A stretch of DNA of 50,682 nucleotides from a virus, in IMG/VR virus record IMGVR_UViG_3300043409_001235, positions 1 through 50,682 of that record, one strand, 5' to 3'. The notes under the pieces were generated by a model. That model was not told the DNA's origin. It made no database searches and saw only the letters and a list, made by a program, of their open reading frames with translations. Every line of letters starts with the position of its first letter. Within the stretch, counting starts at the first letter, position 1. Made by a program: the position numbers and the translations under genes. Shown here in pieces: positions 7,720 to 45,940 of the stretch.

Positions 7720-7720
7720 T

Positions 7721-8143: not shown

Positions 8144-8889
8144 AATCCTGCTGTATTTCCTGGCGACCATGTAATAGATCCAGTAATACTGTCTCCTGTA
8201 TATCCTATATCTGTTAAAAATTTATTATTAATAACATCCCCGTCAAATATATCTATATCTACAGTTTCGATAATAGAACTACTTCTAATCTTAATTGGAG
8301 AATAAATATAACCTTTCATAGTAAACGAAATAACAGATATTATGGATCTTCTATTATCAAAATCGCCTTCATATTCTTCATTCACTTGTACATCTGTTAA
8401 TATAATAGGAATATCTACTTTTGTATAAAAATCATTCATATTCATAGTTACAGTAAAATCAGGAGTAAAAAATGGAACAATTTGTTCTATTATTTGTAAA
8501 TTTTGTTCTGAACTTCTAGAAAACACATACAAAACAAAATTAAAATTATAAGGAGATTCTGAATAAGCTGTTTTTGTTATGTTGTTTGTTGTTTTATTTT
8601 TTTCTTTTAATTTGTTTATTCTTCTCATAGGATCATATTGTAAATTATTCAACTCAAATCCTATTCTTGGTAAAGACATCTGGACGTGTGTCTGATCAGT
8701 AATACCACTTTCAGATATTATCTTTTGAATAAATTTTTCTTTTGGGCCATAACTTAATGGAACTCTTGTTTTTTCAATTCCAGAACTACGCACAGTTTTG
8801 ACATATAAAGAATTGAATAACGAACCAAACCCAATAACATGTTTTCTTATTGTATTGTCAAAACTGTCATCTATTATTTGATTGAACAT
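8140..8889 (-). CDS. 15: Tail sheath stabiliser / tail completion protein, gp15-like
   Basis: A 249-residue protein of the T4 gp15 type, the hexameric ring that caps the finished tail and joins it to the neck. Family features are the segment HVQMSLPRIGFELNNLQYDP, with the following RINKL, and the central IIEQIVPFFTPDFTVTMN. Length is near T4 gp15 (272). It is coupled to its neighbours on both sides: TAATG with gp14 and ATGA with gp16. Confidence 0.95.
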   Translation of the reverse strand: MFNQIIDDSFDNTIRKHVIGFGSLFNSLYVKTVRSSGIEKTRVPLSYGPKEKFIQKIISESGITDQTHVQMSLPRIGFELNNLQYDPMRRINKLKEKNKTTNNITKTAYSESPYNFNFVLYVFSRSSEQNLQIIEQIVPFFTPDFTVTMNMNDFYTKVDIPIILTDVQVNEEYEGDFDNRRSIISVISFTMKGYIYSPIKIRSSSIIETVDIDIFDGDVINNKFLTDIGYTGDSITGSITWSPGNTAGL

Positions 8890-9833
8890 TAGTATTTGCC
8901 CTCACTAAAAGGATCTATGTCTGTAAAGTCGAATATATCAATTCCAGACGATTGTAGTTGATCATTGTCAACAACATTCAATCCTGTACTTGGATCTTTC
9001 TGTGTTATTATATTAGAAACAGAAGACGATCCTTTAAGATAATATTCTCCACCAGAGATTGCACCTTTTATAGTCTGTGTTGCGGCATAAGAAATTGTTC
9101 CACTTATGCCTGTTATATACAACTGACTCTGTGTAGTTCCCTTAATAAATTGTAAGGAAATTGCTGTTGAAGTTGCAGCACTGAGAGTTGCACCAACTCC
9201 AGTAACACCAAGTACTTGATATAGTGGTTCGCCGGCCAGTATTATGTTTCCTGTTAGTCCAGATAATGGATTCAGTGATAAAGGAGCAAGTATGGCATAC
9301 GATTTTCTCGAATCTTCCACTTTGTCTATGTCTGTAATACCAGTATCGATATTTTCGCCACTATAGGTAAAGAGTTCAACATGTAGAGTATATGTGGTCA
9401 ATCCACCTAATTGATAAAATGGTGTCTCGTCTTCTACGAAGTCTATTTCAAACAAACTACCCGATAAAGGAAAATAAATTAAATCGCCCTCTCTTGGTTT
9501 TTTTATTTCATTTCTATAAGACGAGATTTCGGTTTCAAATCTAGTTCTAGAAACAGACAGGGTTGTTCTATCTGTAATTTGAATTCCAAATTTTGCAACT
9601 ATATCTCTATTGCCTTGAAATTTATCAGTATCTATCATATACATTTCAATAGGATATCCCTGCGAAAACTTTGATTCTGGATCTTCTCCAAACAAATTGT
9701 CTATAATTAAATAATCTCTAGGAATATAGACCACATCTCTACCCATTGCTTTGATTGTCTCAATAGTCAGATCATTTATTAATCTCTGTTCTAGTTTAGA
9801 ATCATAACTTTTAAAATATGGATTTGTTGCCAT
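8889..9833 (-). CDS. 14: Neck protein, gp14-like
   Basis: A 314-residue neck (head completion) protein of the T4 gp14 type, which with gp13 closes the portal after packaging and forms the tail docking site. The conserved start NPYFKSYDSKLEQRLINDL and the segment MGRDVVYIPRDY are diagnostic, as is GDLIYFPLSGSLFEIDFVED. It is somewhat longer than T4 gp14 (256); the extra length is a Gly/Ser/Thr-rich region around residues 200-280. Order gp13-gp14-gp15 is as in T4. Confidence 0.95.
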   Translation of the reverse strand: MATNPYFKSYDSKLEQRLINDLTIETIKAMGRDVVYIPRDYLIIDNLFGEDPESKFSQGYPIEMYMIDTDKFQGNRDIVAKFGIQITDRTTLSVSRTRFETEISSYRNEIKKPREGDLIYFPLSGSLFEIDFVEDETPFYQLGGLTTYTLHVELFTYSGENIDTGITDIDKVEDSRKSYAILAPLSLNPLSGLTGNIILAGEPLYQVLGVTGVGATLSAATSTAISLQFIKGTTQSQLYITGISGTISYAATQTIKGAISGGEYYLKGSSSVSNIITQKDPSTGLNVVDNDQLQSSGIDIFDFTDIDPFSEGKY

Positions 9834-17700: not shown

Positions 17701-19404
17701 TACATCACCCTCAATACCGACAAGAGTTTTATGTACAGTACTACAATTTGATGATGCTGAAATTTCTATAAAATCGTTTTGATGTACTTTATCATTTCTA
17801 GATCTATTTCCATCTATAAAATATGGAACAGCAGTAAAGTCCAACGATAATTGCATTAAGTCTGAGAAATATAGATCAGATTTTGTTCTGGCACTGAATT
17901 TATCTTTATCGATAATTGATATATAATTTTTGTATATGACTCCACTCAAAAAGGTTGGAGAAACATAAGAAAAATATCTTGATCCTTGTGCAACTTGAAG
18001 GGGGTTCGTGACACTAAAATAATTACTTTCATTACCGCCAGGGAAATTTATTCCCTGTTTATTACTTCCTAATATTTGATTTTTGTAAGAAGATATAGAA
18101 GTATACCATGGTCTATTAGAGTCACTTAAACCATATACATGACTATACGATTCTACACCATTCGGATTACAATTAGGTATTCCGTTTATCAACCCACATG
18201 TAGGAGTTTTATTTATAGGTAAAATAATTGTACTTGATATTCCTTGTATGGATTTCGGGTTTAGTGTTTTATAATAATCCTTTATATTATAATGAGGACA
18301 ACATGAAATAGTTTTACATAAACTACCATTACCTTGACCACAAGTCGGACATGGACCTTCTTCTCCTTCTCCCCCCGATTCGTTTTTACCTGAACCAGAT
18401 CCTGAACCAGATCCTGAACCAGATCCTGAACCAGATCCTGAGTCGTCATCAGGAAGACAAGGTTCGCCATCATTACATGGAGGATTTTGACAACATTGAG
18501 GACATCCATTCACACCACAAGAACCAGTACAATCACAGTCAGGACAACTTCCTTCGCCACACCTTACGCAAAAGCCATCACATGGAGGACATCCTGGACT
18601 TCCACATGGTCCATTACAAGTCGTACATGGAGGACATCCAGGAGTGCCACATATAGGACATGGACATTGAGGACATCCAACAGTACCACATCCTTCTGGA
18701 CAAGTTATATCATCACCACCACAACCCCCAAATCCACCACCACTTCCGCTACCACTACCACTTCCGCTACCACTACCACTTCCGCGGCCACTACCACCGT
18801 CGTTGCCGCATAGAGGACATCCATTCACACCACAAGAACCAGTACAATCACAGTCAGGACAACTTCCTTCGCCACATTTTGTTATACAACTGCCACCACA
18901 TGGAGGACATCCTGGACTTCCACATGGTCCATTACAAGTCGTACATGGAGGACATCCAGGAGTACCACAGGCGGGACAATACCCACTACATGGTCCATTA
19001 CAATCGCCACTACCACACCGAGGACATCCTGGAGTTCCACATGGTCCATTACAAGTCGTACATGGACATTCAAGAGTGCCACAGACGGGACAATTACCAG
19101 TACATTCAGGACATTCGTTTACACCACATGAGCCAACACAACTACACGGAGGACATCCATAATCACCACAATTTCCAACACAAACACCGCCACCACCACC
19201 GCCACCATTACACGGTATACCGTCACCTCCTACTGATAACTCATAACAAAATTCATAAGTTAAGCCGGGTATTAGACCATCTATTTTATATTTTTTTATA
19301 ATAGGAGGGGCATTATCGAATGCATATTTAGAATATCCAATCTCATATAACTCACAAATTTCTGCACAATGTGGCGCATTACATGGACAAGTATTTCCTA
19401 TCAT
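14761..19404 (-). CDS. Giant Cys-rich tail/fibre protein
   Basis: A 1547-residue protein, not assigned to a family. Residues about 65-380 are a dense array of short modules such as CNGPCGTPGCPRC and CTGSCGVNGCPLC, broken by two Gly-Ser linkers. Two later domains (about 585-660 and 745-820) each carry the pattern VC-x4-P-x-CC followed by GWSADCV and a helix, a Cys motif known from large secreted bacterial proteins. The C-terminal 200 residues hold four more GACC-type modules. The start is the ATG at 19,404, which gives an ATGA overlap; an in-frame TTG at 19,410 is less likely. Cysteine load implies disulfide or metal cross-linking, so folding outside the reducing cytoplasm or after lysis is inferred. 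Confidence 0.8.
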   Translation of the reverse strand: MIGNTCPCNAPHCAEICELYEIGYSKYAFDNAPPIIKKYKIDGLIPGLTYEFCYELSVGGDGIPCNGGGGGGGVCVGNCGDYGCPPCSCVGSCGVNECPECTGNCPVCGTLECPCTTCNGPCGTPGCPRCGSGDCNGPCSGYCPACGTPGCPPCTTCNGPCGSPGCPPCGGSCITKCGEGSCPDCDCTGSCGVNGCPLCGNDGGSGRGSGSGSGSGSGSGSGGGFGGCGGDDITCPEGCGTVGCPQCPCPICGTPGCPPCTTCNGPCGSPGCPPCDGFCVRCGEGSCPDCDCTGSCGVNGCPQCCQNPPCNDGEPCLPDDDSGSGSGSGSGSGSGSGSGKNESGGEGEEGPCPTCGQGNGSLCKTISCCPHYNIKDYYKTLNPKSIQGISSTIILPINKTPTCGLINGIPNCNPNGVESYSHVYGLSDSNRPWYTSISSYKNQILGSNKQGINFPGGNESNYFSVTNPLQVAQGSRYFSYVSPTFLSGVIYKNYISIIDKDKFSARTKSDLYFSDLMQLSLDFTAVPYFIDGNRSRNDKVHQNDFIEISASSNCSTVHKTLVGIEGDVVLPGCTCANSLTPCSAVGCSFCTDMVCLLMPACCDVSNYIGTSPTGWSADCVTVSNLIYQQGVMLPVGPPHGPTLTWNINNIEYTNLRIPCNPVAPVEPCDPDVIPPRVLCGSTFNDYSIGVGISSEGDVFATLWSNMNVLPYRPFGFNYLSAFPQGISMNNCGVTHSIVGIAGCTCNNPAGYCSPLGCSYCSDLVCSFYPNCCSSSGWSADCVELANDIYNYGYPGGSIGLPREIVINDITYPVGSTLPPKIVCGTTGNSNPVVMVNYTGYTMGVFGERPDLLIFRIANMLYPNNFMAGPGTTCGDVVGHTYCSLYSSSGTCDVEKDMYTSVFYNQIAVGERHAVVSLGKWDAGIERVDNILGPPQIKTVPYLIQFSGQTYGKIDQTKTKWSTADINLFGGDSRDLSLFASNKYGPNMMKCVNEISYTNQKDKLYDIGLTGMDGATPIEFRVFDSDNNVCSFKDGNIINYDMCNTSYSLGFTCCFKYGVTLGHEDHPIWHGGTGAMPYISMISADKVCDNRLGTIGSVGSWDWISAGKTGETCTVCRCTTPAGAISRHFMCWGNRYDYATIPIEAWDPNTNTPNQIDEVFYKTIVGAEVKKLITYAPCQIDIKGSSPVLYYRSNPGLSGTLQTTDEIGKIYSIKGRTRYYTGAFTGLPGSPISAWREVESYGDTARVFNTTEEASTPISRNDPYTDYIPRRKIRVIAEAGITTDYEILDPVYSDIHVHYTPTYPLISSEAWLNNRYIKPNPECVVTGIGSCCYIEGENTKCGDNFDEFSCFLKQGQFTDHVDCQNLVGGCSSNQFELGACCIGTSCTDTVQCKCTGNWDANKMCDDDPCSDGGVITGPPGSTGACCKTNVYTWETSCSITTEPGCSGPDPKFAFAWEYNKMCSADQGILADCMRENCCKYYIGACCLNTVEEPVVDENGRIVFPALYTCLSTTPGDCDQKNGRFIGFDKDCYDCNPNRHLKGEESPYL
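18389..18441 (-). repeat. 12-bp tandem repeat encoding a Gly-Ser linker
   Basis: Tandem copies of gaaccagatcct (plus-strand reading) encode the SGSGSG linker of the giant Cys-rich protein. A second, less regular Gly-Ser linker lies near 18,735-18,795. Such repeats can change copy number and so linker length. Confidence 0.8.
18498..18650 (-). repeat. Internal duplication, copy A (copy B at 18,813-18,968)
   Basis: About 150 bases inside the giant Cys-rich gene recur 315-318 bases away at 18,813-18,968, in the same frame and nearly identical except for a short divergent patch. The unit encodes several Cys modules. The near identity shows recent in-frame duplication. Confidence 0.85.
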
Positions 19405-20225
19405 GGACAACCACCTCCACCATCATCATCGCCGCCACCATCATCGTCACCACCACCATCATCATCGCCACCATCATCATCGCCGCCACCATCATCGTCA
19501 CCACCACCACCACCACAGTCTCCTTTGGTAACCCATCCATTTGCTGCAGCATCCCATTGTTTACTACAAGGTTCTTGGTCGTCATAACAACCCCATTCTT
19601 CAGATTTACAAGCACAACAAGCGCAGATTGCCTCGCGAGCAACTTCTCCCGTGATTTGATTAAGTGGTGGACATGCAGTATCGCACCCACCACATGTACC
19701 GCAAGCGTGTGCAGATTCCACGCCGGGACAACATTTGTTGCCGTTACACCCTGGCCAAGTTTTGGAGACACTTATAGCTGCTGGACATACTTGACCAGGT
19801 ACCTCTGGCGTGGGCCATTTGTCTGGTGCAGATCCACAGCATATGTGATAATCTGGTGCTACTTTGCAGCCATAATGTGACAAATCCCACCACGCCGTGA
19901 CAACATCACCACACAGTTTTTCTGGTGGACCATCAAAATCAGCTGTTGGATCTGGTCCGCTTTGTGGAGCTCCACTAAAAGCTTGAGGTCTGCCTGTCTC
20001 TCCAGCTTCACACGAACAACACTCTGTACGGGCTGCAAAACAATAATGCGACAGTTTGAGACCAGTTGGACCTAATGGAACTGAATTTCCATTGGAATCT
20101 GTCCCACCACCACCATTTTCTTTGCCATTTAGTTGAGTGAATGGAGGACAACCACGACACAACGCATCTTGGCAATACTTATATTGCCTAGTCGGCGTCC
20201 ACACTGTTTTTGATGTATGCGACAT
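19401..20225 (-). CDS. Cys-rich protein with Asp-Gly repeat tail
   Basis: A 274-residue protein not recognised. It has about thirty cysteines (for example ECCSCEAGETGR, CGTCGGCDTACPP, CACCACKSEEWGC) and ends in roughly 35 residues of DDDGG units followed by CP. The Asp-Gly tail looks suited to bind Ca2+ or to form an extended acidic spacer; this is inference. Its Gly codons supply the GGAGG upstream of the next gene, which overlaps by ATGA. Its own start overlaps the previous stop (TAATG). The tail is encoded by trinucleotide-like repeats at 19,411-19,515 and may vary in length. Confidence 0.7.
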   Translation of the reverse strand: MSHTSKTVWTPTRQYKYCQDALCRGCPPFTQLNGKENGGGGTDSNGNSVPLGPTGLKLSHYCFAARTECCSCEAGETGRPQAFSGAPQSGPDPTADFDGPPEKLCGDVVTAWWDLSHYGCKVAPDYHICCGSAPDKWPTPEVPGQVCPAAISVSKTWPGCNGNKCCPGVESAHACGTCGGCDTACPPLNQITGEVAREAICACCACKSEEWGCYDDQEPCSKQWDAAANGWVTKGDCGGGGGDDDGGGDDDGGDDDGGGDDDGGGDDDGGGGCP

Positions 20226-32149: not shown

Positions 32150-32538
32150 ATAATTATATTTAGTGTTTGTATTTCTGTTGTTTTGACGTTTGTATATGTG
32201 ATCCCTAGATTTAAATTAGAAGATACAAGATTTAACGTTATATTTATATCTTTTATTCTAGGCTCATATCTCATTAATACTGATATTATCTCATTTATTG
32301 TTGTAGTAGAAGTATATTGGTCATTTACAACTCTAGACTTATTTTCAAATAATATATTGGAATATATTGTTGTTCCTATTTGTGTGTTAAATGCTCTTTG
32401 ACCAAAGATTGTCAAAACAAGATTCTTTATACAATTGTTTATAGACACGTTACCTTTTACTAAATTTATATCTTTAGTAAACATGTTTTTAGTTATAAAA
32501 ACAGGTATGTCTGTTGCATTATATCCTAATATTCTCAT
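32146..32538 (-). CDS. 25: Baseplate wedge protein, gp25-like
   Basis: A 130-residue protein of the gp25 family, a lysozyme-like fold used structurally in the wedge, where it starts sheath assembly. The family's signature EPR lies at 92-94 (RYEPRIKDI), after NLVLTIFGQRAF and the IGTTIYSNILFE segment. The start at 32,538 is chosen because it overlaps the upstream stop as TAATG; an in-frame GTG at 32,550 would overlap more and fits less well. Length matches T4 gp25 (132). Confidence 0.93.
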   Translation of the reverse strand: MRILGYNATDIPVFITKNMFTKDINLVKGNVSINNCIKNLVLTIFGQRAFNTQIGTTIYSNILFENKSRVVNDQYTSTTTINEIISVLMRYEPRIKDINITLNLVSSNLNLGITYTNVKTTEIQTLNIII

Positions 32539-33587
32539 TAGGATTCCCACTTATCTTGTTCTAAAATATAGATTGGAGAGTCCCATCCCACATCATCTGC
32601 TTTATATTTATTTGTATCTCTCATTAGAGTTAATATTGTTGATTGGTTTTTGTTCTCAAATTTATATTCTATTTCTGTTATTAGCCATTTTCCGTGAATT
32701 TTTCTTTCTTCTCGTCCTATCATTTTATTTTGATCCTGAACGATTATGATGTCTCCTAATTTCAATTCCTTGGACAAAGCTGCTACAGTTACAGTAATTG
32801 TATTAGATTTTAGTTGTCCCATCTGTGCTATTCTAACTAATGGAGTGGTGTGGGGAGTTTCCAAAAATGTAGAATATGTTCTAGTATATGATAAATAATC
32901 ACCAAAAGATACTCCCTGTTCTGGACACAAACAGCTACATGGATGTTTCGGGTCATTCCATATACATCCCATATATTTTTCACCAAATTTTTCCTTTATG
33001 AGATCACATTCATTTGTTTTTAAGTATGCTTCATATAACTTTAAATATGACGGTTCAACTTCTGTTGGTTTAGAACTTTGAGCTGGACAATTTGCATGAA
33101 TATCTCCCTGCGTTGCTCTCTTAGGTTGATTTTTTACTGGATATGAACACCAATCTAAGTCTAGACTTTTACAAGATAAGTTTCCTGGACCAAAAACTAC
33201 AAATTGTGCAGCCCAATTAGAATCAAATAGATCATAATTTGGTTCATTAATGGGTGGTTCGACTAATCCATAGTCACTTTCTCCACTAATATCCCACTTC
33301 CATACGTCTTTTGTCTTGAGTGGAGTGTTGCCGGGGTTATAGATTATAGCATCACCATTCATCCAACTCATGGTAGTTTCGGTAAAATACTTATCTAAAC
33401 TCGATTTGTATGTATCACTATAAGCTGATAGATGAGTATTTCTATTAATTTCTAATGAAACGGCTTGCTCAATAAGGCTATGGTCTGTTGGTAACTCTGG
33501 ATAATTATCAGCAGTTAAGCCTGGTAACCATGGTCCGACTTCACAGTTTATTTCTTTATCTGGAGGATTTGTCTCATTTGTTGCCAT
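32538..33587 (-). CDS. Baseplate hub-region protein, unassigned
   Basis: A 349-residue protein. The C-terminal 100 residues (KLGDIIIVQDQNK, GKWLITEIEYKFENKN, STILTLMRD) look like the beta-barrel end of hub proteins that sit beneath the spike, including gp27-type proteins. The middle has a Cys cluster (HPCSCLCPEQG) and an aromatic-rich stretch. It ends at the gp25 start. T4 has the lysozyme spike gp5 near here, but no lysozyme catalytic region is visible. A TATAAATA lies six bases before the ATG. Confidence 0.65.
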   Translation of the reverse strand: MATNETNPPDKEINCEVGPWLPGLTADNYPELPTDHSLIEQAVSLEINRNTHLSAYSDTYKSSLDKYFTETTMSWMNGDAIIYNPGNTPLKTKDVWKWDISGESDYGLVEPPINEPNYDLFDSNWAAQFVVFGPGNLSCKSLDLDWCSYPVKNQPKRATQGDIHANCPAQSSKPTEVEPSYLKLYEAYLKTNECDLIKEKFGEKYMGCIWNDPKHPCSCLCPEQGVSFGDYLSYTRTYSTFLETPHTTPLVRIAQMGQLKSNTITVTVAALSKELKLGDIIIVQDQNKMIGREERKIHGKWLITEIEYKFENKNQSTILTLMRDTNKYKADDVGWDSPIYILEQDKWES

Positions 33588-33593
33588 TTATAA

Positions 33594-33601
33594 TATTTAT
33601 A
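33594..33601 (-). promoter_or_regulatory. Late-promoter box immediately before the hub-region gene
   Basis: Exact TATAAATA on the minus strand in the 65-base gap between the nucleotidyltransferase-tailed gene and the 349-residue gene, ending six bases from the ATG. With T4 spacing the transcript would begin at the start codon. The gap location favours a real promoter. Confidence 0.5.
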
Positions 33602-33652
33602 CCATTATTTAGTCTTCAATTTGATAATAAGATATTTTTTCACTGTTTGTCT

Positions 33653-36220
33653 TTAAACTTCTTTATTTTGGGAAGATTGTACTATGCGAAACGCTTTATT
33701 GAACATATTTTTATATTCATTTATATCATTTGGTCTGGATATATATTCCAATTTAGTGAAAATATCACCAATATTTAATTGGTCTAGAAAAGTAGCAATA
33801 AAAGAAACAGTGTTTTCAATATATTTTGAATTTTTTCTGTTTTTGTAATTGGTCATAGCATAAAATCTACCAAGAATACAAGAAGATATGGTACTTATTG
33901 ATATTTCGTTATTTTTATATTTTATTTTTTCAAAGTCATAACCACCCATAACTGTCTGACTACGTTTTCTAAAAATATCGACCACCATTCCATTGTTCGT
34001 ATTGATAATAATAATAGGAAATTCTGTTTTTACTACTCCCATATCATCTAACGATGTTCTTTCAAAAACACTGTTAATATAATCCATATTATAATACCAT
34101 TCTTTGGGTAGTATATTTAAAAATTTTGTCATAGCATCCGAATCTATAATATCCTCTATTACAATATCAACATCCTTTATGTCCGTCAATATATTTCTAT
34201 TTGTATTTAATTTATAATTTTTATGTATATTTAATGCTATACCTCCCACCAAACTTGGAGATAAATTATTATTTTCGAGTATGGATAATAAATTTATTAT
34301 GCTATTTTCTTTATCATTTGGATTTAAAGTATTATAGTTATAAATTTCTATATTATTGTTTAGTTCTACAAGTTTTTCTTCAAGTTCTATACCACCCTGA
34401 ACACCCATCAATCTAAAACTACTGCCGCCACCACCATCACATTCTGCACTATTACAAGAGGGACATCCTTCATTTTCTCCACAAACAGAACAGTTCGAAC
34501 AACTACAATCATCACAGGTGTCAATTGGTCCACCATCACATGTCGGGCTATCACAGGAAGGACATCCTGGACATTGTCCACATAAAGCACAAGTATCACA
34601 GTTACACTCAGAACATGGAGGATTTTCACACTCACATGTATCATTACGACATGAATCTATTTTATTTGTTTTAATATAAATATCTGTCCCATCCCCATCC
34701 CAAACAGGATCATGATAATCCTTTACGTCAGTAAATAATAACTGCATAAAACGAAAAGATCTTAAATTATAATCCTTACAACATCCAGGATTATCATCTG
34801 GTATTCGATACCCTGTATCGAACGGATCCATTAAATCTAGAATAGATGAAATAAAGTTCCCGAACTGAAAAATACCATCTACTCCTGTTCCTGCTGACCG
34901 CGGCATATCTGCACTTGGCCCAATAGTATGAAGTACTTCAATATCTCCAGAGTTGTAACTATCTTCACCTTGTGTAGGTACTTTCGATATGTAGCTAGGG
35001 GTAACTCTACATTGCTCACAGACACCAAGTTTTTTGTTATTATCAGAACATTTAGTTTGTGGACACAATAATGGTGCATTGCATATTGCTAATTTAGGGA
35101 AAAGACCACCATTCGGCGTTCGATTTGATGCCCAATCTTTCCAGTTAGGATAGTCAGTTTGTGTTAATTCCCAATTGATAATAGGTGGATTTATTGTTGA
35201 CCATTTACCAGGATCATTAGTGGTCATTTCTGTCAATTCTCTTGGCCATGTATTCATGGTATACACATAGTCATGACATTCATCTATACCATTATATTCC
35301 ATTTTAAAATTTTCACATATATTTTTACACGTTTTATATAATGTTGGAACATGTTCTGTTCTAAAATTTTCAGTTAAAGCAGAAAATTCAAATCCAATAG
35401 TTGTCGTGTAGCCAGGATTAAATGATGCTACAGTTAGATTTGGTGGTTCAATTACTCCCAATATTGTAAATGGAGAGTAAGCTAAATCTGCACAAGCCGT
35501 ATTTTGTAATGCTGCTTCTGCACAAGCAGAATTCCATTTACCAGTACAGCATTGGGGTAGAGTTGCACATACAGCAGATCTACACACTTTACTAGGACAC
35601 CATGCTTCAGATGGTAATTGTTCTTCAATACCTTCTCCACCATCACACAAAACACTACAACCACATCCATCATCCTTTGACACTTCATTGCATGGTTTAG
35701 TACATCTATTATAATAGTTTGGTCCGTACTTTTCTCTATTTTTTATTGTTAAATTTGTGTTTGGTCGACATCCCACATACGTATTATCAATAGCACCCCC
35801 AAACCACCATCCCCATTCAGCGTCAACAACATTAAATTTATTATAATCATTATTTGGCCACCACGAGTTTACATCCACATTTATAGTCCAAACTGTATCT
35901 AATTTTTCTGGAGTAATTAGTCCTTCATTATATGCTTTCGCATAAGGACTCCATGGCGCAGTCCACGTTTCAGCTGGAAAAGCATATCTATCACTATGAT
36001 CTCTTTTTATTTCATAATATTTGATTTGAGTTCGGATTCCACATGAATCTTTCGGAACCCAGTCTGGTCCTGCAGTGCCGTCTCCATTACACGGAGGATA
36101 ACAACCACTACCTGCTCGTGAATAACAACAAGGAGGTTCAAATTTGCTCTGAATATACCCATATATAGGATATGAATTTGACAGATACCAAAAATTATCA
36201 CCACAACAACAAAATGCCAT
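33653..36220 (-). CDS. Cys-rich hub-region protein with C-terminal nucleotidyltransferase-like domain
   Basis: An 855-residue protein with three parts. Residues 1-528 are aromatic and Cys-containing and include one VC-x4-P-x-CC motif (212-243: VCATLPQCCTGKWNSAC). Residues 529-594 are a Cys cluster (CNCDTCALCGQCPGCPSC) and are followed by a GGGG linker. Residues 605-855 resemble a nucleotidyltransferase fold of the minimal/AbiEii-like type: LVGGIALNIH (657-666), then TDIKDVDIVIED with Asp683 and Asp685, and a third Asp748 in GMVVDIFRK. The reading frame is open throughout; Met605 has no good ribosome-binding site, so a fusion is favoured. It lies between the gp27-like hub gene and baseplate genes. 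Activity and substrate are unknown. Confidence 0.75.
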   Translation of the reverse strand: MAFCCCGDNFWYLSNSYPIYGYIQSKFEPPCCYSRAGSGCYPPCNGDGTAGPDWVPKDSCGIRTQIKYYEIKRDHSDRYAFPAETWTAPWSPYAKAYNEGLITPEKLDTVWTINVDVNSWWPNNDYNKFNVVDAEWGWWFGGAIDNTYVGCRPNTNLTIKNREKYGPNYYNRCTKPCNEVSKDDGCGCSVLCDGGEGIEEQLPSEAWCPSKVCRSAVCATLPQCCTGKWNSACAEAALQNTACADLAYSPFTILGVIEPPNLTVASFNPGYTTTIGFEFSALTENFRTEHVPTLYKTCKNICENFKMEYNGIDECHDYVYTMNTWPRELTEMTTNDPGKWSTINPPIINWELTQTDYPNWKDWASNRTPNGGLFPKLAICNAPLLCPQTKCSDNNKKLGVCEQCRVTPSYISKVPTQGEDSYNSGDIEVLHTIGPSADMPRSAGTGVDGIFQFGNFISSILDLMDPFDTGYRIPDDNPGCCKDYNLRSFRFMQLLFTDVKDYHDPVWDGDGTDIYIKTNKIDSCRNDTCECENPPCSECNCDTCALCGQCPGCPSCDSPTCDGGPIDTCDDCSCSNCSVCGENEGCPSCNSAECDGGGGSSFRLMGVQGGIELEEKLVELNNNIEIYNYNTLNPNDKENSIINLLSILENNNLSPSLVGGIALNIHKNYKLNTNRNILTDIKDVDIVIEDIIDSDAMTKFLNILPKEWYYNMDYINSVFERTSLDDMGVVKTEFPIIIINTNNGMVVDIFRKRSQTVMGGYDFEKIKYKNNEISISTISSCILGRFYAMTNYKNRKNSKYIENTVSFIATFLDQLNIGDIFTKLEYISRPNDINEYKNMFNKAFRIVQSSQNKEV

Positions 36221-36228
36221 AATATTCC

Positions 36229-39200
36229 TTAGTTAAATTTAGTATTCTGTAACATAGTCATTATTGTAGCTAATACTGCTTGATCATCGTCTAAGAAATT
36301 CAACCAACCATCAAATGGATCTCCTGGTAGATTTGTTATATTAAAATTACCATGTCGAAAACTTGTACTCAAATCAGTATCAAGCATTGAATATATTTTT
36401 TGTGGAATAAATATATTTTTTGGAAAATGAAATGCCCACCAAGATCTATGTGGTTTAATTTTTCTATGAGATCCAAGTAAGATACCACTTCCCATAGCAG
36501 TTTTTCGTCTTTCCGGGTCAACCTCAGCAGATCTCATTTTTGGTAATTCTACATCTATAGATGATATATCGGATTTAGTATATGAATCAGAATATGACCA
36601 CATTTGTCTAGGATCTTCTGCATAATAAGGATATTCAGTTTCAAACATTGGTTCTGGCCAAAGATCCATTCCATTTCTAGTAAGTTCTGTTTGAGTTAAT
36701 TCTGGATTTCCACCCTCAGCAGACCAATCATTTCTATGATCGTATTTTGATTCTATTTTACCTTTTTTGACAGCAACGTCAAACCCATAAGGATCCATAC
36801 CAATAACAACTGCATTATTTCGAATAGTCTGACGACCAGACGGACCTGCAGTTAAAGAAACAATATACGGCAAGAAATACTCAGAACCCATATCCCTAAT
36901 AAACCCATCAGGAAAATCTTTAATTCGATCTAAGCCTATAGGTACTTCTAATTCAACTCTGACATATGAAGCAATCTGTTCTCGTTTTATATTAGGTAAT
37001 CCTCGGTATTCCTCGGAAATGTTCGGATCAAATAAATTAGCATCCAGCAACCCAGGCATTGAACTTATTATAGTTTTTTTAAATTCTTTATTTTGTACTA
37101 CAACCACATTATCTTGATTTGAATAATAATTCAGTCTAGAATTTATTATTTTTGTTTGAAAGTTTTTCCTCCTCCACAGAGCAACAGCTGCGACTGGGTT
37201 GAATTTTTGATTATAATATGGATTTGAATTTGTATAAGAATATGTTTGAGCATTTTCTCCTTCAAACCAAATATTATATAACCATTCTCCCATACTAGCT
37301 CCTTCTATACCACGAGCTTTAGAAAGGATTTCATAACGACTTCCACGTATAGGTTTTCTGGTGATCTTTTTAACACCATATAAGGAAAGTGGTTGTGATA
37401 AAGTTTTTCCTCTAAACCCTTCACTTACATTTCCTTTAAATATTGATGTTCCTGGAGTTTTAGAATAAAAGAATGCAGGCCTGTTCCAATATTCATTGTA
37501 ATGTGTTTGTAGTTTTGAAACTAGACCAGACTGTATTTTATTTTTAACCTTTAGAAGTAAATAATTTTCTATATTAAGCATATTTAACTGTAAAACTGCA
37601 ATTTCTTTTAATGCATATAATATATTAGGATTAAAACAATACTCATTATAACACGTATTTCCGACACACTTTTCTTTCATCTTCCATCCAATATGCTTGT
37701 ATGTAATTCCTGCATCGGATCCTCGCATAAATGTATTAGTATAACACTCGTTCATTTTGGTATTAGTGAATTGTATGTCGTATGTTGGTCCGAAATTTAA
37801 TTCAACACCAGGCGCAAGAGCATCGTAAATGTCTTTATATTCTTTATATACTTTGTTACTTTCTTTTTTCCAATTTTCATCAAAATTTATAGTTTTTAAA
37901 CAAGAATATTGAGGAATTCTAAAATATGGAATTTTTCCAATGCCCTCTATATCTGATACTGGACCAAATGCAGTTAACCCCTCAGACGTAACACCAGTAC
38001 CAGCCCAAACAAAAATATCAGGACCTCCATATTCTGGTTTATATCCACAAGGAACTGACAATTTATTGAGATCTGGATAAGTAGTTTTATATTCTGGTAG
38101 ATTTTTATTACTCATATGACGCATTGCTGTCCAATAATTATTGACATCAATCAATACGTCATTTTTATCCCTATTTTCGATACATTGTGAACAAGGTACT
38201 AAACTTTTTCCAATATAAGTTATTGCTTCGTCTATCCACGAATCAACCTTATTTCCAAATACTTTTATATCATTAATTCTGCTTTGATTTTCGGATATTT
38301 TCTTATCATATTCTGTAAGACCGCGGCTAATGACATTATAATAATAATCTGATAGTTTAATGTTACCATTACCTGCTAGATTATAAAATCTTCCTATAGA
38401 TTCATTGTATACACCTTTAGTGGTATCTATTGCCCAAGTTAATCCATTTTGGTCGGTGGTCAAACCTGTATAATTTATATGATCATTAAAAGATCCGGCT
38501 GCAACTATTTCATATAAACCGACAGAAGAACCTATATCAAGATAATCTTTTTTATCTGGTTTATTTACAAATAATCCATTTTTTCCAAATAAATCCCCAA
38601 TATCATAGGATTTTATTGTTCCATCAATACCTTCCACTTCAAGTTGCGGTTGAGAGTATATAGATCGTAACAATTGAATATCTTCTGCAGAACCTATAGG
38701 CTGATCCATACAACAAACAACACATCTATATGCTTCCCATTTTCTTTTTATATTTTTCATACGAGCAAAAGCCATTCTTCTTGCTATTAATGGCATTCTT
38801 ATTTCAGTATGAAATTTATAAAAATTCTCAAAATTTATATCACTTATATCGTGTTGTGGTTGCCATGTAACATTATTATATTTGTTGTTTTCTTTTCCTA
38901 AATAATCCCACCAAACAGGAGTATCAGTATTATACGGACTAGAATCAAAATACCCAAAATCTGTTGCGACTATATTTGTTATTAGATTTTCTACTGGGGG
39001 GTCGATAGATAGACTTGTTGATTTTATAGGAAAAGTAAGATCAGTGATTAGCGGGTTATTATAAAAATGTTTAACATAATTAAACGAATCGTTGTAATTA
39101 TAAATAACATTACTTTTTGTCATTCCACTTTCAGTATCAGTAAAATCCAAATAAGGTTTTGTATAATCTGGATCTGTTCTACTATATGAGGAATAGAATA

Positions 39201-40074
39201 TTTTATTTTCAAGACTAGAAATATTATCAGAAGAAGAATTGACAACTATGTTAGTAATTTTATCCTGAATATTTAACATAGGGTTTGAAATAATAGTATG
39301 TACTGGCTCGTTTATTAAAAAAGAATCCGCTGTTTTAAAATGCCAGAAACTTTCTATATCTGACCATAGTAAAAAATTGACTTTTTTCTTGTCCATTGAT
39401 ACAGCATTTTTTGTTACTGCTGCAAATAGTTGTATCAAATTACTTTGAAATAAACTTATACCATATGGATTAGAAATATTATTATATTTTATCCATGCTC
39501 CATTTGATGCATCTTCTATCTCCTTGGGGTCATATATAAAGCCATTTCTCTTAAAGAATTTGTGTATGAAACTAGGAATCTCAAGAGAATCTTTTCGTGA
39601 TATCCACCCAATCCAGTCTTTTTTTACTTCTTGTGGAGTTGTGTTATTTGCCACAAATAGATCTTTATTCATAAATGTTAATGAAAATAATCTAACATAT
39701 TCCGACGGATTCATTTTAAGAGCTAATGTCGAATCATTAGTTATAAGAGTAACATCAGTTATTATTCCAGCAAAGGTATAAATCTTTCCATCTTTTTTTT
39801 TCCGAAACGAAAAAATAATATCCTCAAATCCTTGTATGTTATAATTGTCCACGAAATTTCCAATATCATTTACTAAAAGTTTACCAGAAACAACAGGAGA
39901 AAATAAACTTTCCTTTACGGAAATAGAGGAAAATATAGAAGAACCACCGATATGTGGTTTTTCTTGTGGATATATACTAATACTTCCAAAAATTTCTGAG
40001 ATAATAGTAATATCAACAATATTATCTGATGTGAATAGTGTATTATCTGGCGTATCTGGTAGTTCTATTTTCAT
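36229..40074 (-). CDS. 27: Baseplate hub protein, gp27-like N-terminus with giant extension
   Basis: A 1281-residue protein. Residues about 40-330 match the style of T4-like gp27 hub proteins: FSSISVKESLFSPVVSGKL, then a strand-rich region and PSFIHKFFKRNGFIYDP. T4 gp27 has 391 residues, so roughly 900 are additional; these hold CVVCCMDQPIGSAEDIQLL, a Cys pair (VPCSQC), and a C-terminal section rich in Trp/Tyr (PHRSWWAFHFPKNIF). It might combine gp27 with functions of gp5 or gp29-associated hub parts, but no lysozyme motif is recognised. It is followed eight bases later by the Cys-rich nucleotidyltransferase-tailed gene. Confidence 0.75.
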   Translation of the reverse strand: MKIELPDTPDNTLFTSDNIVDITIISEIFGSISIYPQEKPHIGGSSIFSSISVKESLFSPVVSGKLLVNDIGNFVDNYNIQGFEDIIFSFRKKKDGKIYTFAGIITDVTLITNDSTLALKMNPSEYVRLFSLTFMNKDLFVANNTTPQEVKKDWIGWISRKDSLEIPSFIHKFFKRNGFIYDPKEIEDASNGAWIKYNNISNPYGISLFQSNLIQLFAAVTKNAVSMDKKKVNFLLWSDIESFWHFKTADSFLINEPVHTIISNPMLNIQDKITNIVVNSSSDNISSLENKIFYSSYSRTDPDYTKPYLDFTDTESGMTKSNVIYNYNDSFNYVKHFYNNPLITDLTFPIKSTSLSIDPPVENLITNIVATDFGYFDSSPYNTDTPVWWDYLGKENNKYNNVTWQPQHDISDINFENFYKFHTEIRMPLIARRMAFARMKNIKRKWEAYRCVVCCMDQPIGSAEDIQLLRSIYSQPQLEVEGIDGTIKSYDIGDLFGKNGLFVNKPDKKDYLDIGSSVGLYEIVAAGSFNDHINYTGLTTDQNGLTWAIDTTKGVYNESIGRFYNLAGNGNIKLSDYYYNVISRGLTEYDKKISENQSRINDIKVFGNKVDSWIDEAITYIGKSLVPCSQCIENRDKNDVLIDVNNYWTAMRHMSNKNLPEYKTTYPDLNKLSVPCGYKPEYGGPDIFVWAGTGVTSEGLTAFGPVSDIEGIGKIPYFRIPQYSCLKTINFDENWKKESNKVYKEYKDIYDALAPGVELNFGPTYDIQFTNTKMNECYTNTFMRGSDAGITYKHIGWKMKEKCVGNTCYNEYCFNPNILYALKEIAVLQLNMLNIENYLLLKVKNKIQSGLVSKLQTHYNEYWNRPAFFYSKTPGTSIFKGNVSEGFRGKTLSQPLSLYGVKKITRKPIRGSRYEILSKARGIEGASMGEWLYNIWFEGENAQTYSYTNSNPYYNQKFNPVAAVALWRRKNFQTKIINSRLNYYSNQDNVVVVQNKEFKKTIISSMPGLLDANLFDPNISEEYRGLPNIKREQIASYVRVELEVPIGLDRIKDFPDGFIRDMGSEYFLPYIVSLTAGPSGRQTIRNNAVVIGMDPYGFDVAVKKGKIESKYDHRNDWSAEGGNPELTQTELTRNGMDLWPEPMFETEYPYYAEDPRQMWSYSDSYTKSDISSIDVELPKMRSAEVDPERRKTAMGSGILLGSHRKIKPHRSWWAFHFPKNIFIPQKIYSMLDTDLSTSFRHGNFNITNLPGDPFDGWLNFLDDDQAVLATIMTMLQNTKFN

Positions 40075-41908: not shown

Positions 41909-42328
41909 ATGCCATATAAAACGTTTTTCATCCCAAAAAATAAAAAAAAATATATTGGCAATTGCGACAATATCCGTTGTAGATCTTTATGGGAAAGAAG
42001 AATGTGTAAATATCTAGATGAAAATGATAAAATAACAAAATGGGGGTTTGAAATTCTCAAAATACCGTATATCTCCCCCACCGATAACAAAATTCACAAT
42101 TATATACCAGATTTTGTAATAGAAACTGTTAATTCAGACAAAAAAGAAATAACAATAGTAGAAATAAAACCAATGAAACAGACAATAAATCCATTATCTA
42201 GAAAAAGAAAAAATCTAAAAGAATGTATGACATATTCTATAAATAAAGCAAAATGGGAAAGTGCTATATCGTATTGTGAAAAAAATAACTGGACATTTAA
42301 GATTATAACAGAAAAGGAGTTATTTTAA
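41909..42328 (+). CDS. 4: Head completion nuclease-like protein, gp4-like
   Basis: A 139-residue protein of the T4 gp4 (gp50/65) head completion family, which acts on proheads after packaging and has a TnsA-type endonuclease fold. The expected residues are visible: Glu29 in RSLWERRMCKYL, Asp68 in NYIPDFVIE, and Glu85-x-Lys87 in VEIKP. Length is near T4 gp4 (150). It is the first gene of the plus-strand segment, divergent from the gp48/54-like gene across 91 AT-rich bases (with TATATATTATATAG just before the ATG), and its stop overlaps the next start (TAATG). Confidence 0.92.
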   Translation: MPYKTFFIPKNKKKYIGNCDNIRCRSLWERRMCKYLDENDKITKWGFEILKIPYISPTDNKIHNYIPDFVIETVNSDKKEITIVEIKPMKQTINPLSRKRKNLKECMTYSINKAKWESAISYCEKNNWTFKIITEKELF

Positions 42329-42897
42329 TGTCATATGACAACTTTAATCCTGGTACTGATTTGGAAACCTTTCGAGCTAAAATGGCAAACCTCCAACCAC
42401 CAAATAAGTATATGGTGCAATTTTTTAAGACTGGTCTTGGGTTGATAAGTGTTTATCCAGACTCCATAACATTACCAACAATTGAAGTTCAACCCATGGA
42501 GTATTCTGTATGGGGAAATCCAGTATTGATCCCAGTAACTACACTTACAGGAGAAATGACTGTAAGTTTTATATTATTAGATGATTGGGAAATTAGAACA
42601 TATTTCGAAAATTGGTTAAAAATGATTCAGGAACCATCTTTTCCTGGAGCAGTCACTCGAGCCCCGAGTGCGTATGAAAATGCATATGGATCAGGAACTG
42701 TAACATTTTATAACAACGCGAAGCCAAAAACATATAATATACCAGAATGCTATCCATTAAACTTAACTCCCATAGAGTTTTCTGCTAGTTCCAGTGGATA
42801 TACAATATTTACTGTTGTTTTTTATACCCGTAATATTCAGGCAGATATTAACTTGGGAACAACCACTAACATACAACAAAATCAAACGATTCAATAA
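42328..42897 (+). CDS. Second tail-tube-like protein (gp19 fold; possible gp54 role)
   Basis: A 189-residue protein with clear similarity to the tube protein at 4009-4536: FENWLKMIQE against FESWIEMMDG, and CYPLNLTPIEFS against CWPVDISPIDLS, followed in both by a long closing strand. In T4, gp19, gp48 and gp54 share this fold. It may be the tube initiator gp54, a tail terminator, or a second tube subunit. It is coupled to gp4 by TAATG with AAAAGGAG upstream, and precedes the gp26-like gene, giving a tube-chaperone-tape order. Confidence 0.85.
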   Translation: MSYDNFNPGTDLETFRAKMANLQPPNKYMVQFFKTGLGLISVYPDSITLPTIEVQPMEYSVWGNPVLIPVTTLTGEMTVSFILLDDWEIRTYFENWLKMIQEPSFPGAVTRAPSAYENAYGSGTVTFYNNAKPKTYNIPECYPLNLTPIEFSASSSGYTIFTVVFYTRNIQADINLGTTTNIQQNQTIQ

Positions 42898-42915: not shown

Positions 42916-43617
42916 ATGCCGTTATGTGATATATTATTAAATATTTTACCAAAATACGAAACCGAAATACCTTCCACCAAAGAAAAGGTATGGTTTCGGC
43001 CATTGTTGGTAAAAGAAGAAAAGATATTAATGCAAATATCTGAATTTGGTAACCACAAAGAAAAAATAAATTGTATATTACAAACACTAAAATCTTGTTT
43101 TGAATATACTAATTTTGAAAAATTGAATATTGTAGATATTCAGTATATGTTTATTCAACTCAGAATAAAATCTATAGGTTCTGTTGTTTCTCCGTTTTTT
43201 ATATGCAAAGAAACAGGAGAACGGATAAAATTAAAAATAAACCTAGAAGATGTAAAAGTCACATATGATGAAAATCATGTAAAATTTATAGAATTTGATG
43301 ATATTAAAATAAAAATGAAATATCCATCAATTACAACTATAATGCAATATAGTTCTTCTAGCGACGAAAATGATGTATATAAATTAGCAATTTCGTGTAT
43401 AGAAGAAATCCACACTAGAGATGAACAGATTGATTGTTCTACGCAAAGTCAAACTGAATTGGAATCTTTTTTAGACAATATGACAAAAGAACAATTCGAT
43501 AAAATTATACGTTTCTTTGAAACTATGCCTAAAATCGAAAAACCCGTAGAATATACAACATCAGATGGTGTTAAAAGAACCATAGTGTTACGAGGAATTT
43601 CTGATTTTTTCGTCTAA
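42916..43617 (+). CDS. 26: Baseplate hub protein / assembly factor, gp26-like
   Basis: A 233-residue protein of the T4 gp26 type (T4 baseplate protein family). The conserved start is visible as PSTKEKVWFRPLLVKEEKIL (about 19-38) and LNIVDIQYMFIQLRIKSIG (about 70-88), then FICKETGERIKLKINLEDV. It is near T4 gp26 length (208). Proteins of this family resemble tail assembly chaperones. AAAGGAACTTAAAT serves as ribosome-binding site. It is followed by the small gp51-like gene. Confidence 0.88.
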   Translation: MPLCDILLNILPKYETEIPSTKEKVWFRPLLVKEEKILMQISEFGNHKEKINCILQTLKSCFEYTNFEKLNIVDIQYMFIQLRIKSIGSVVSPFFICKETGERIKLKINLEDVKVTYDENHVKFIEFDDIKIKMKYPSITTIMQYSSSSDENDVYKLAISCIEEIHTRDEQIDCSTQSQTELESFLDNMTKEQFDKIIRFFETMPKIEKPVEYTTSDGVKRTIVLRGISDFFV

Positions 43618-43628
43618 CCCTTAGCCAT

Positions 43629-43814
43629 ATGAGTTTTCATGACTTTATGAAATTACAGTTTAATCTAATACACATACAGAAATATAATATATCAGAAATA
43701 GATAATATGCAGATATGGGAAAGAGATTTACATATGGACTTACTAAGGGAATTTATCAAAGAAGAAAATTTAAAAAATATTCAAGAAGCATCTAACAATA
43801 AACGTAGAAGATAA
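43629..43814 (+). CDS. Small gp51-like baseplate hub assembly protein
   Basis: A 61-residue basic protein after gp26 and before the repeat gene. The segment KYNISEIDNMQIWERDLHMDLL (split: YNISEIDNMQIWERD, about 19-33) is the short helix pattern seen in gp51/gpT-type assembly factors, where an IxxM-x-x-W/Y-E element precedes a helix. T4 gp51 is longer (249). The start lacks a strong ribosome-binding site; the 11-base gap with a stop in gp26 argues against a frameshifted fusion. Assignment by position and pattern. Confidence 0.65.
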   Translation: MSFHDFMKLQFNLIHIQKYNISEIDNMQIWERDLHMDLLREFIKEENLKNIQEASNNKRRR

Positions 43815-43816
43815 AT

Positions 43817-45910
43817 ATGAAATATAAAAATGAATTAATAAATGTAATTAAAAATACTTTTATTTTTGGTATCAATGATACGTTATTACCAAATACGTAT
43901 GATACTAATTTATATCCAGAAGATAAAAATTTTAAAGATATCGATAACCCTCAACAAAGAAATATAAATTCAGATATTATTTTCGATAGACCATTGAATA
44001 ATATTACTAACTCTAAATTTAAAAATAAAAATTCGATGGCATCTAGATTTTTAGATATTCAAAAAAATATAGACATACTACCAAAAAAATTCAACAAGAT
44101 ATTGGAAAAAATAAATATAGTTCAACCAAACAATGATATTATTAAACACTTACCATCAGAATCCGTTGAACCCGTATCAAAGACCTTAGCCACATCAGAA
44201 TCGTTTGAACCAATACCCGAGTCCGTAAAGATACCACCAGAATCCTTTGAACCCGTATCAAAGACCTTAGCCACATCAGAATCGTTTGAACCCGTATCAA
44301 ACACTTTAGCCACATCAGAATCGTTTGAACCTGTATCAAAGACCTCTATTGTACCATCAGACTCCTTTGAACCAATACCTGAGTCCGTAAAGATACCATC
44401 AGACTCATTTGAACCCGTATCAAACACTTTAGCCACATCAGACTCCTTTGAACCTGTATCAAAGACCTCTATTGTACCATCAGACTCCTTTGAACCCGTA
44501 TCAAAGACCTTAGCCACATCAGACTCCTTTGAACCCGTATCAAAGACTTTAGCCACATCAGACTCCTTTGAACCCGTATCAAAGACCTTAGCCACATCAG
44601 ACTCCTTTGAACCAATACCTGAGTCCGTAAACATACCATCAGAATCCTTTGAACCCGTATCAAAGACCTCTATTGTACCATCAGAATCCTTTGAACCCGT
44701 ATCAAAGACCTTAGCCACATCAGAATCCTTTGAACCAATACCTGAGTCCGTAAACATACCATCAGACTCCTTTGAACCAATACCTGAGTCCGTAAACATA
44801 CCATCAGAATCCTTTGAACCCGTATCAAAGACCTCTATTGTACCATCAGAATCCTTTGAACCCGTATCAAAGACCTTAGCCACATCAGAATCCTTTGAAC
44901 CAATACCCGAGTCCGTAAACATACCATCAGAATCCTTTGAACCAATACCTGAGTCCGTAAAGATACCATCAGAATCCTTTGAACCCGTATCAAAGACCTT
45001 AGCCACATCAGAATCGTTTGAACCTGTATCAAAGACCTCTATTGTACCATCAGACTCCTTTGAACCAATACCCGAGTCCGTAAACATACCATCAGAATCC
45101 TTTGAACCAATACCCGAGTCCGTAAAGATACCATCAGACTCCTTTGAACCAATACCTGAGTCCGTAAACATACCATCAGAATCCTTTGAACCCGTATCAA
45201 AGACTTTAGCCACATCAGAATCGTTTGAACCTGTATCAAAGACCTCTATTGTACCATCAGACTCCTTTGAACCCGTATCAAAGACCTTAGCCACATCAGA
45301 CTCCTTTGAACCAATACCCGAGTCCGTAAAGATACCTGATATTCTTTCTTCCTCTGAAGAAACAACTCAAACAATTACTCCATATACAAAAAGTATACCA
45401 AATTCTGTTGAAAATTTAAAAAAAATATCATTTGAACAAAAATTTAAAAGAGGAATTTTTTACCCAGATGCTGTAGAAATAAATAATATAAAAAGAAATT
45501 TATTTACAGATATTCTAGGAGATAATGTATCTCAAAATATTTTAAATAAAAATTTACAAAAAATTCCTGCATTTAAAGATGGAGGCAAATTTGCCTCATC
45601 TGGTGTAGATTTTAAAGCTATAGCTTATAATGAACCAGGCAGTAGATCTAATGAAACTCATATAATACAACCAGATAATACACCTATGACTACTATAAGC
45701 AATATTAATACAACTAAAGAATCGTCTATTCCTATAGAAATGGAACAAGATATATCAGAATCTATATTAATTCTTAGTAACAGAATAAAGAAATTGGACA
45801 GGAAAAAAAACGACACACCAGGGCCAGAACCAAAATTGAAATATCCTCCAAACGGTAATAGAGGATTAAATAATAATATAGAAATATATTATAATTATTT
45901 TAATACATAA
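43817..45910 (+). CDS. Repeat-built protein in the tape-measure position
   Basis: A 697-residue protein with a unique N-terminus (1-113), a repeat region (about 114-507) and a unique C-terminus. The repeats are 29 units of 13-14 residues of three kinds: SFEPVSKTLATSE, SFEPVSKTSIVPSD and SFEPIPESVKIPSE. The C-terminus holds IPAFKDGGKFASSGVDF, reminiscent of the FxDGG segments near the ends of tape-measure proteins. The order tube-like, gp26, gp51, this gene is that of tape-measure loci, and no other gp29 candidate is in the window. Pro-rich repeats are unlike the usual helical ruler, so the role is tentative. It ends at a terminator. Confidence 0.7.
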   Translation: MKYKNELINVIKNTFIFGINDTLLPNTYDTNLYPEDKNFKDIDNPQQRNINSDIIFDRPLNNITNSKFKNKNSMASRFLDIQKNIDILPKKFNKILEKINIVQPNNDIIKHLPSESVEPVSKTLATSESFEPIPESVKIPPESFEPVSKTLATSESFEPVSNTLATSESFEPVSKTSIVPSDSFEPIPESVKIPSDSFEPVSNTLATSDSFEPVSKTSIVPSDSFEPVSKTLATSDSFEPVSKTLATSDSFEPVSKTLATSDSFEPIPESVNIPSESFEPVSKTSIVPSESFEPVSKTLATSESFEPIPESVNIPSDSFEPIPESVNIPSESFEPVSKTSIVPSESFEPVSKTLATSESFEPIPESVNIPSESFEPIPESVKIPSESFEPVSKTLATSESFEPVSKTSIVPSDSFEPIPESVNIPSESFEPIPESVKIPSDSFEPIPESVNIPSESFEPVSKTLATSESFEPVSKTSIVPSDSFEPVSKTLATSDSFEPIPESVKIPDILSSSEETTQTITPYTKSIPNSVENLKKISFEQKFKRGIFYPDAVEINNIKRNLFTDILGDNVSQNILNKNLQKIPAFKDGGKFASSGVDFKAIAYNEPGSRSNETHIIQPDNTPMTTISNINTTKESSIPIEMEQDISESILILSNRIKKLDRKKNDTPGPEPKLKYPPNGNRGLNNNIEIYYNYFNT
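44155..45337 (+). repeat. 29 tandem 39/42-bp coding repeats of three types
   Basis: Counted from the translation: 12 units ending in KTLAT (39 bp), 6 ending in KTSIVP (42 bp) and 11 ending in ESVKIP or ESVNIP (42 bp), total 1182 bp. Order is scrambled, and units differ mainly by Glu/Asp and a few silent changes. Near identity at DNA level shows recent expansion. Because repeats contain no stop in other frames, long false reading frames occur on the minus strand. Confidence 0.93.
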
Positions 45911-45940
45911 AAAAACCCCCATTGAGGGGGGTTCTTTTGT
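45909..45940. terminator. Bidirectional intrinsic terminator
   Basis: A hairpin of CCCCC and GGGGG around ATTGA, preceded by a run of A and followed by TTCTTTTG, lies between the converging repeat gene (plus) and gp32 (minus). It can terminate both. Confidence 0.9.

Follow-up and report, generated by a model that had tools for sequence, protein, structure and literature searches.

A repeat-bearing candidate tape measure in a T4-like virus of aquatic bacteria

The tail operon of a T4-like virus ends in a gene for a 697-residue protein (ORF697), 57% of which consists of 29 short repeats. Is this protein the ruler of the tail, and if so, can a ruler be built from repeats that each contain proline? 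The gene lies in IMG/VR record IMGVR_UViG_3300043409_001235, whose full 50,682 bases, a fragment, are the window analyzed here.

The virus and its tail operon

The virus is one of aquatic bacteria, and its genes for terminase, portal, sheath, tube, neck, and baseplate wedge proteins and for gp32 mark it as T4-like. Its terminase is approximately 55% identical to cyanophage terminases, and its gp26 has at most 39% identity among the matches listed from 50,697 phage records. In sequence, the virus is far from all of these records. A direct tblastn search of the same records with the tube-like protein gave no match, and gp26 was used to find relatives instead. The plus-strand order is gp4, tube-like gene, gp26, gp51, ORF697, and a terminator, followed by the convergent gp32 gene (Table 1). 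An earlier note on this DNA had placed the candidate behind a tube-like gene, gp26, and gp51, and the gene starts (42328, 42916, 43629, and 43817) confirm that order. The start of ORF697 lies 3 bp beyond the end of gp51.

Table 1. Features of the tail operon and related positions in the window
Feature	Position	Strand	Basis or remark
Main tail tube gp19	4009-4536	-	Separate from the operon
gp4-like head completion gene, first of the operon	41909-42328	+	PHROG 218 head closure, E 1.8e-45
Second tail-tube-like gene, gp54-like position	42328-42897	+	PHROG 45 tail tube, E 2e-21
gp26-like short tail assembly chaperone (TAC-N)	42916-43617	+	PF12322, E 5.6e-53; PHROG 150, E 6e-56
TTTTTTC slippery heptamer before the gp26 stop, predicted -1 frameshift site	43605-43611	+	
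gp51-like TAC-C, probably a -1 frameshift extension of gp26	43629-43814	+	Open conserved -1 frame
697-aa protein in the tape-measure slot	43817-45910	+	ORF; synteny with L003, L004/L005, L018, L021, L022, L089-L092
Non-repeat N-terminal part, 113 aa, short predicted helix	43817-44155	+	AF2
Repeat array, 29 units, three types	44156-45337	+	TRF and parsing of the ORF
C-terminal region: IPAFKDGG, a degenerate tape-measure motif, and a terminal helix	45338-45910	+	Profile; AF2
Intrinsic terminator closing the operon; convergent gp32 gene next	45914-45933	+	

Several other features of the window are recorded in their own right. The single hub ORF of the relative L003 (1693 aa) corresponds to two window ORFs (1281 and 349 aa, within 32538-40074 on the minus strand), which are split by an 855-aa Cys-rich ORF (33653-36220, minus strand) that has no match to the L003 hub and whose end looks nucleotidyltransferase-like by eye. 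The T4 late-promoter core TATAAATA occurs 25 times in the whole window, compared with 13.6 expected from shuffles. Further short tandem repeats of 12, 18, and 15-18 bp (18389-18441, 18734-18797, and 19412-19509) are found in and just past the region of a 1549-aa ORF, and they probably belong to tail-fibre genes.

The repeat array

Parsing of the ORF resolves 29 tandem units of 13-14 residues and three types at 44156-45337, in agreement with the interleaved array that had been described at about 44155-45337. TRF delimits the array at 44151-45336, with a score of 750 for a 42-bp unit and 1126 for a 165-bp higher-order unit. Type A (SxSFEPVSKTLAT, 13 aa) accounts for 12 units, type B (SxSFEPVSKTSIVP, 14 aa) for 6, and type C (SxSFEPIPESVxIP, 14 aa) for 11. 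They follow one another in the shuffled order ACAABCABAAACBACCBACCABCCCABAC. Units of the same type are also nearly identical at the DNA level, as had been claimed: only 3-6 codons vary within a type, and about half of these changes are synonymous, with the remainder mostly D/E and K/N. At least one proline is present in 29 of 29 units, again as first noticed, and 14.4% of the array residues are proline. Each unit has exactly one phenylalanine except the first, which has valine there. Because exact repeats within the array reach 148 bp, the count of 29 is provisional and could be a miscount if the record is a short-read assembly.

With the window protein as query, no close relative of this array was found. 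Its DNA pattern matched L095, L096, and L097, all of which were rejected because none has the neighbouring genes; the L097 match sits in the portal/terminase region of a different phage type. A 390-aa ORF opposite the array (44122-45294, minus strand) was rejected as a gene. It is a shadow frame that stays open because the unit lengths of the array are divisible by three.

An upstream chaperone pair with a predicted frameshift

Judged by profile similarity and reading frame, gp26 and gp51 are T4-like tail assembly chaperones joined by a predicted -1 frameshift. A profile of the gp26-gp51 fusion matches T4 gp26 (E 1e-24) and T4 gp51 over nearly its full length (E 2e-11). The 3' end of the window gp26 gene reads GA TTTTTTC GTC TAA, and a -1 slip at the heptamer would read on as FFRLTLSHMSFHDFMKLQF... 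into gp51. A heptamer near the gp26 stop occurs in 37 of the 37 loci scored (25 TTTTTTC and 12 TTTTTTT). The -1 frame between it and gp51 is open and conserved in every one, including the window, P-SSM2, S-CREM1, and Melnitz. Cyanophages in which gp26 and gp51 are annotated as separate genes are also among these loci. A frameshifted tail-assembly-chaperone pair of this G/GT type normally precedes the tape-measure gene, and the gene that follows the pair in the window consequently occupies the tape-measure slot.

In lambda, a chaperone pair of this kind binds the tape measure (PMC5009743). PMC10274946 and PMC10885494 cite Vladimirov et al. 2022 for such chaperones in T4-like phages, so we dropped the gp26/gp51 signature as a new finding. 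According to the same citations, T4 itself encodes the short and long chaperone copies as separate genes. An older observation that cyanophage gp51 has only about 20% of the length of T4 gp51 (PMC3037559) agrees with gp51 being a frameshift extension.

Relatives and their slot proteins

In a tree of the gp26-gp51 fusion, the window forms a clade with L003, L004, L018, L020, L021, L022, and L091 (support 100/99), within which its own branch is long. The slot of the relatives is defined here as the interval between gp51 and gp32 on viral contigs. The L020 contig stops just past gp51 and leaves its slot protein outside; every clade member whose contig continues past gp51 has an Asn/Ser/Thr-rich protein in this place. 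The slot protein has 461 residues in L003, 465 in L018 (12-aa unit DIHNNITNVNPP), 548 in L004/L005 (14-aa unit NNLTSNVTNTTLPT), and 478, 478, 565, and 541 in L089, L090, L091, and L092, respectively (12-13-aa unit ITNQSNPVTNNS). The repeat sequences differ from lineage to lineage within the clade. The slot ORFs of L021 and L022 are Asn-rich and truncated. The L021 protein (6926-9511) has at least 862 residues, 46% of them Asn, Ser, or Thr, and its contig ends inside the repeats; it is possibly the longest of the clade.

Copy number varies even between close relatives. L089, L092, and L091, whose DNA around the gene is 98.4-99.4% identical, have 3, 8, and 10 units (478, 541, and 565 aa, all in frame), counts that share the caveat of the window array, since the L021 and L022 contigs end inside the slot gene and the assembly of such arrays is fragile. 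These three phages support the earlier suggestion that the length of the array can change quickly. The aligned part of the slot protein has a dN/dS of 0.11 (L090-L091), which indicates that it is under purifying selection, and the slot protein evolves faster than gp26 or gp32.

Similarity to tape-measure families

C-terminal pieces of 55-59 residues from the L003, L018, and L089 slot proteins each match 8-9 PHROG tape-measure families, always close to the C-ends of the profiles, and the L004 piece matches such families weakly. Compared with the 50,697 phages, the L003 protein matches five records, which are the annotated tape measures of S-CBS1 (two records) and S-CBS3 (two records) and the S-CREM1 slot protein. 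A herpesvirus glycoprotein match of L004 falls under the curated cut-off and is a composition artefact.

Neither the window protein nor its C-terminal segment matches a tape-measure family among the PHROG and Pfam profiles. Its C-terminus (IPAFKDGGKFASSG...) is a degenerate version of the tape-measure motif that reaches an E of only 0.015-0.1 (0.097) against a profile of the relatives built without it. Against the relatives' C-terminal profile, ORF697 outscores all other window ORFs and 200 shuffles. The N-terminus has no sequence match to the relatives, so the case for the window protein depends mainly on its position. Searches detected no second tape measure in the window (a 50.7-kb fragment) or in the 156.7-kb L003 contig, the completeness of neither being established, and this includes the separate, clear gp29-type gene that the earlier note had set against its own proposal. 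Ten large ORFs of the L003 contig were considered as alternatives, and none matches a tape-measure family. Profiles of helix-rich slot proteins likewise detect nothing in the window or in that contig; because they also miss T4 gp29, a very divergent ruler could escape them. The original reading of ORF697 as a candidate tape measure is thus partly supported, by its slot, by the C-terminal motif of the clade relatives, by the repeat number that varies between near-identical relatives, and by the lack of another candidate in these two sequences, but not by any family match of the window protein itself.

Composition and predicted structure

Descriptions of known tape measures present them as mostly helical, and a hydrophobic (membrane-active) segment is common in them but not universal. 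The window protein is not predominantly alpha-helical by composition or AF2, and 19-residue hydropathy detects no hydrophobic segment typical of tape measures. Helix formers make up 29% of its residues and 24-34% across the clade proteins, compared with 39-50% in T4 gp29 and other T4-like slot proteins. Its best 19-residue hydropathy is 0.94 and the clade maximum is 1.28, whereas T4 gp29 and the other slot proteins have values of 1.16-2.28. A 7-residue periodicity is present in gp29 and several other slot proteins, and one of 12-14 residues in the repeat-bearing clade proteins.

The AF2 model of the window protein has low confidence (mean pLDDT 34.7) and contains no secondary structure in the array. 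Its helices, at residues 2-14 (block pLDDT 67) and 640-663, are both outside it. A similarly low-confidence model of the L003 slot protein (pLDDT 38.8) has short helices at the ends. These models suggest that the window array is probably disordered, in line with the earlier remark that it is unlike the known helical rulers. They also make the earlier estimate of a tail of about 105 nm (697 residues at 1.5 angstrom) unsafe, since that figure assumes a protein that is all helix and the array is non-helical by composition and AF2.

Slot-protein length and tail length

Tail lengths of cluster C cyanophages (Table 2 of PMC10665884) can be set beside their first slot proteins, which have 1565 residues in S-CREM2 (tail 418 nm), 933 in S-N03 (138 nm), 936 in S-H34 (129 nm), and 864 in S-CRM01 (140-170 nm). 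The longest first slot protein occurs with the longest tail, which is suggestive for only four isolates. The corresponding spacing is 1.4-2.0 angstrom per residue in three isolates and 2.7 in S-CREM2. An extended conformation of all 29 units, at 3.0-3.3 angstrom per residue, would give the window virus a tail of about 165-175 nm.

S-CREM2 (L101 24483-33554) has two unusually long slot genes (1565 and 1456 aa), and its 418-nm tail is the longest reported for a cyanophage. The annotation of both products reads endolysin and virion protein, and "tape measure" does not occur as a term in the main text of the S-CREM2 paper.

Proposed function and alternatives

We favor the interpretation that ORF697 works as a tape measure with lineage-specific, fast-changing, and probably disordered repeats, and we hold it with moderate confidence. 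It is based on position, the frameshift signature, a tape-measure C-terminus in three lineages, arrays that change, and searches of the window and the L003 contig that found no other candidate. ORF697 would be made together with gp26 and the gp26-gp51 frameshift fusion, and these chaperones would coat it, perhaps with one hydrophobic anchor per unit. The tube could then polymerize from the hub around ORF697, whose C-terminus would lie at the baseplate hub, and stop at the end of the protein. One hydrophobic position does recur in each unit (Phe in the window, Leu or Ile in the relatives), and aromatic anchors have been described in other tape measures (PMC3271669; PMC5099701). By analogy, this residue may bind a chaperone. 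Recombination between units would move 13-14 residues in or out in frame, and such gains and losses should lengthen or shorten the tail.

A broader version of this proposal is possible but doubtful. The clade rulers might all be largely non-helical, with disordered or extended arrays that are unrelated in each lineage and vary in copy number within species. Each residue would then account for well over 1.5 angstrom of tail, and these rulers would have no hydrophobic segment for membrane passage.

ORF697 could also be a tape measure in which the array is only a floppy spacer, with the remainder of the protein as the ruler and the repeats as tolerated noise or, for example, chaperone-binding sites. 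The predicted disorder fits this arrangement, as do the nearly equal lengths of the L003 and L018 proteins (461 and 465 aa), of which only the latter has a clear array, and the fact that lineages differ in array sequence and keep only the unit size of 12-14 residues. However, deleting repeats or other parts of the TP901-1 tape measure shortens the tail proportionally (PMC5099701), and a spacer of 29 units, more than half of the protein, would have to be stored inside a fixed tube. We consider a spacer unlikely.

An improbable alternative is that ORF697 represents only a C-terminal tape-measure remnant or a hub plug and that another gene encodes the real ruler. It would account for a protein with neither a helix-rich ruler nor a hydrophobic segment and for relatives that resemble tape measures only in the C-terminal motif, and the genome is incomplete. 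Against it, neither the window nor the 156.7-kb relative yielded another candidate, and a gene of this kind follows the chaperone pair in every clade member that reaches the slot. That ORF697 is unrelated to tails and merely sits at the end of their operon is very improbable: the missing family match and the high Ser/Thr/Pro content would be compatible with it, but all relatives have the protein in the same slot, it shares the operon up to the terminator, a tape-measure motif is present in relatives, and the slot protein is under purifying selection.

Comparison with known systems

If ORF697 is a tape measure, its closest parallels are only partial. The TP901-1 tape measure also has 29 proposed repeats, each of which carries an aromatic residue in a constant position, and its tail length follows protein length (PMC5099701). 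Its repeats, in contrast, are 11 or 18 residues long, degenerate, and alpha-helical, and it has two hydrophobic regions (PMC5099701), whereas the window units are of 13-14 residues, near-identical, proline-containing, and predicted to be disordered in a protein with no hydrophobic region. T4 gp29 shares the T4-like tail, chaperones of the gp26/gp51 type, and a comparable total length (590 aa versus 697 aa). It differs in its helix-favouring composition, heptad periodicity, and hydrophobic stretch, and has no detectable sequence similarity to ORF697; moreover, T4 gp26 and gp51 are separate genes on opposite strands.

Slot proteins of Kyanoviridae (S-CREM1 SCREM1_47/48, P-SSM2 T4-GC 13/14, and S-CREM2 gp208/209) also lie behind gp26-gp51, and that of S-CREM1 has the motif PAxxxGGxxxxPTxxxxGExxPExxIP in common with the clade relatives. 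Usually two genes encode them, and the proteins are rich in helix, have hydrophobic segments, and sometimes include peptidase domains. In the window and its clade relatives there is a single slot gene with none of these three attributes. YscP, the ruler of the Yersinia type III needle, varies in length between strains by repeat copy number, including that of a 14-aa repeat, and its size is linearly related to needle length (PMC3469391). It is a secreted ruler of another machine and not homologous, so it serves as an analogy only.

That tape measures can contain repeats is thus already known (PMC3271669; TP901-1, PMC5099701), as is a ruler, YscP, in which a 14-aa repeat varies in copy number (PMC3469391). 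The present case is set apart by a non-helical make-up with no hydrophobic segment, by a repeat that each lineage has swapped for an unrelated one, and by copy numbers that vary between near-identical phages. The titles and abstracts from a literature search, with most subscription journals outside its scope, contain no description of disordered or asparagine-rich tape measures.

If the proposed function is correct, then a clade whose slot is filled by proline- or asparagine-rich, probably disordered repeats implies that rulers can measure without helix or that this clade controls length in a different way. L089, L092, and L091, nearly identical but with 3, 8, and 10 units, constitute a natural length series for relating tail length to repeat number, and tail length may change easily among these viruses.
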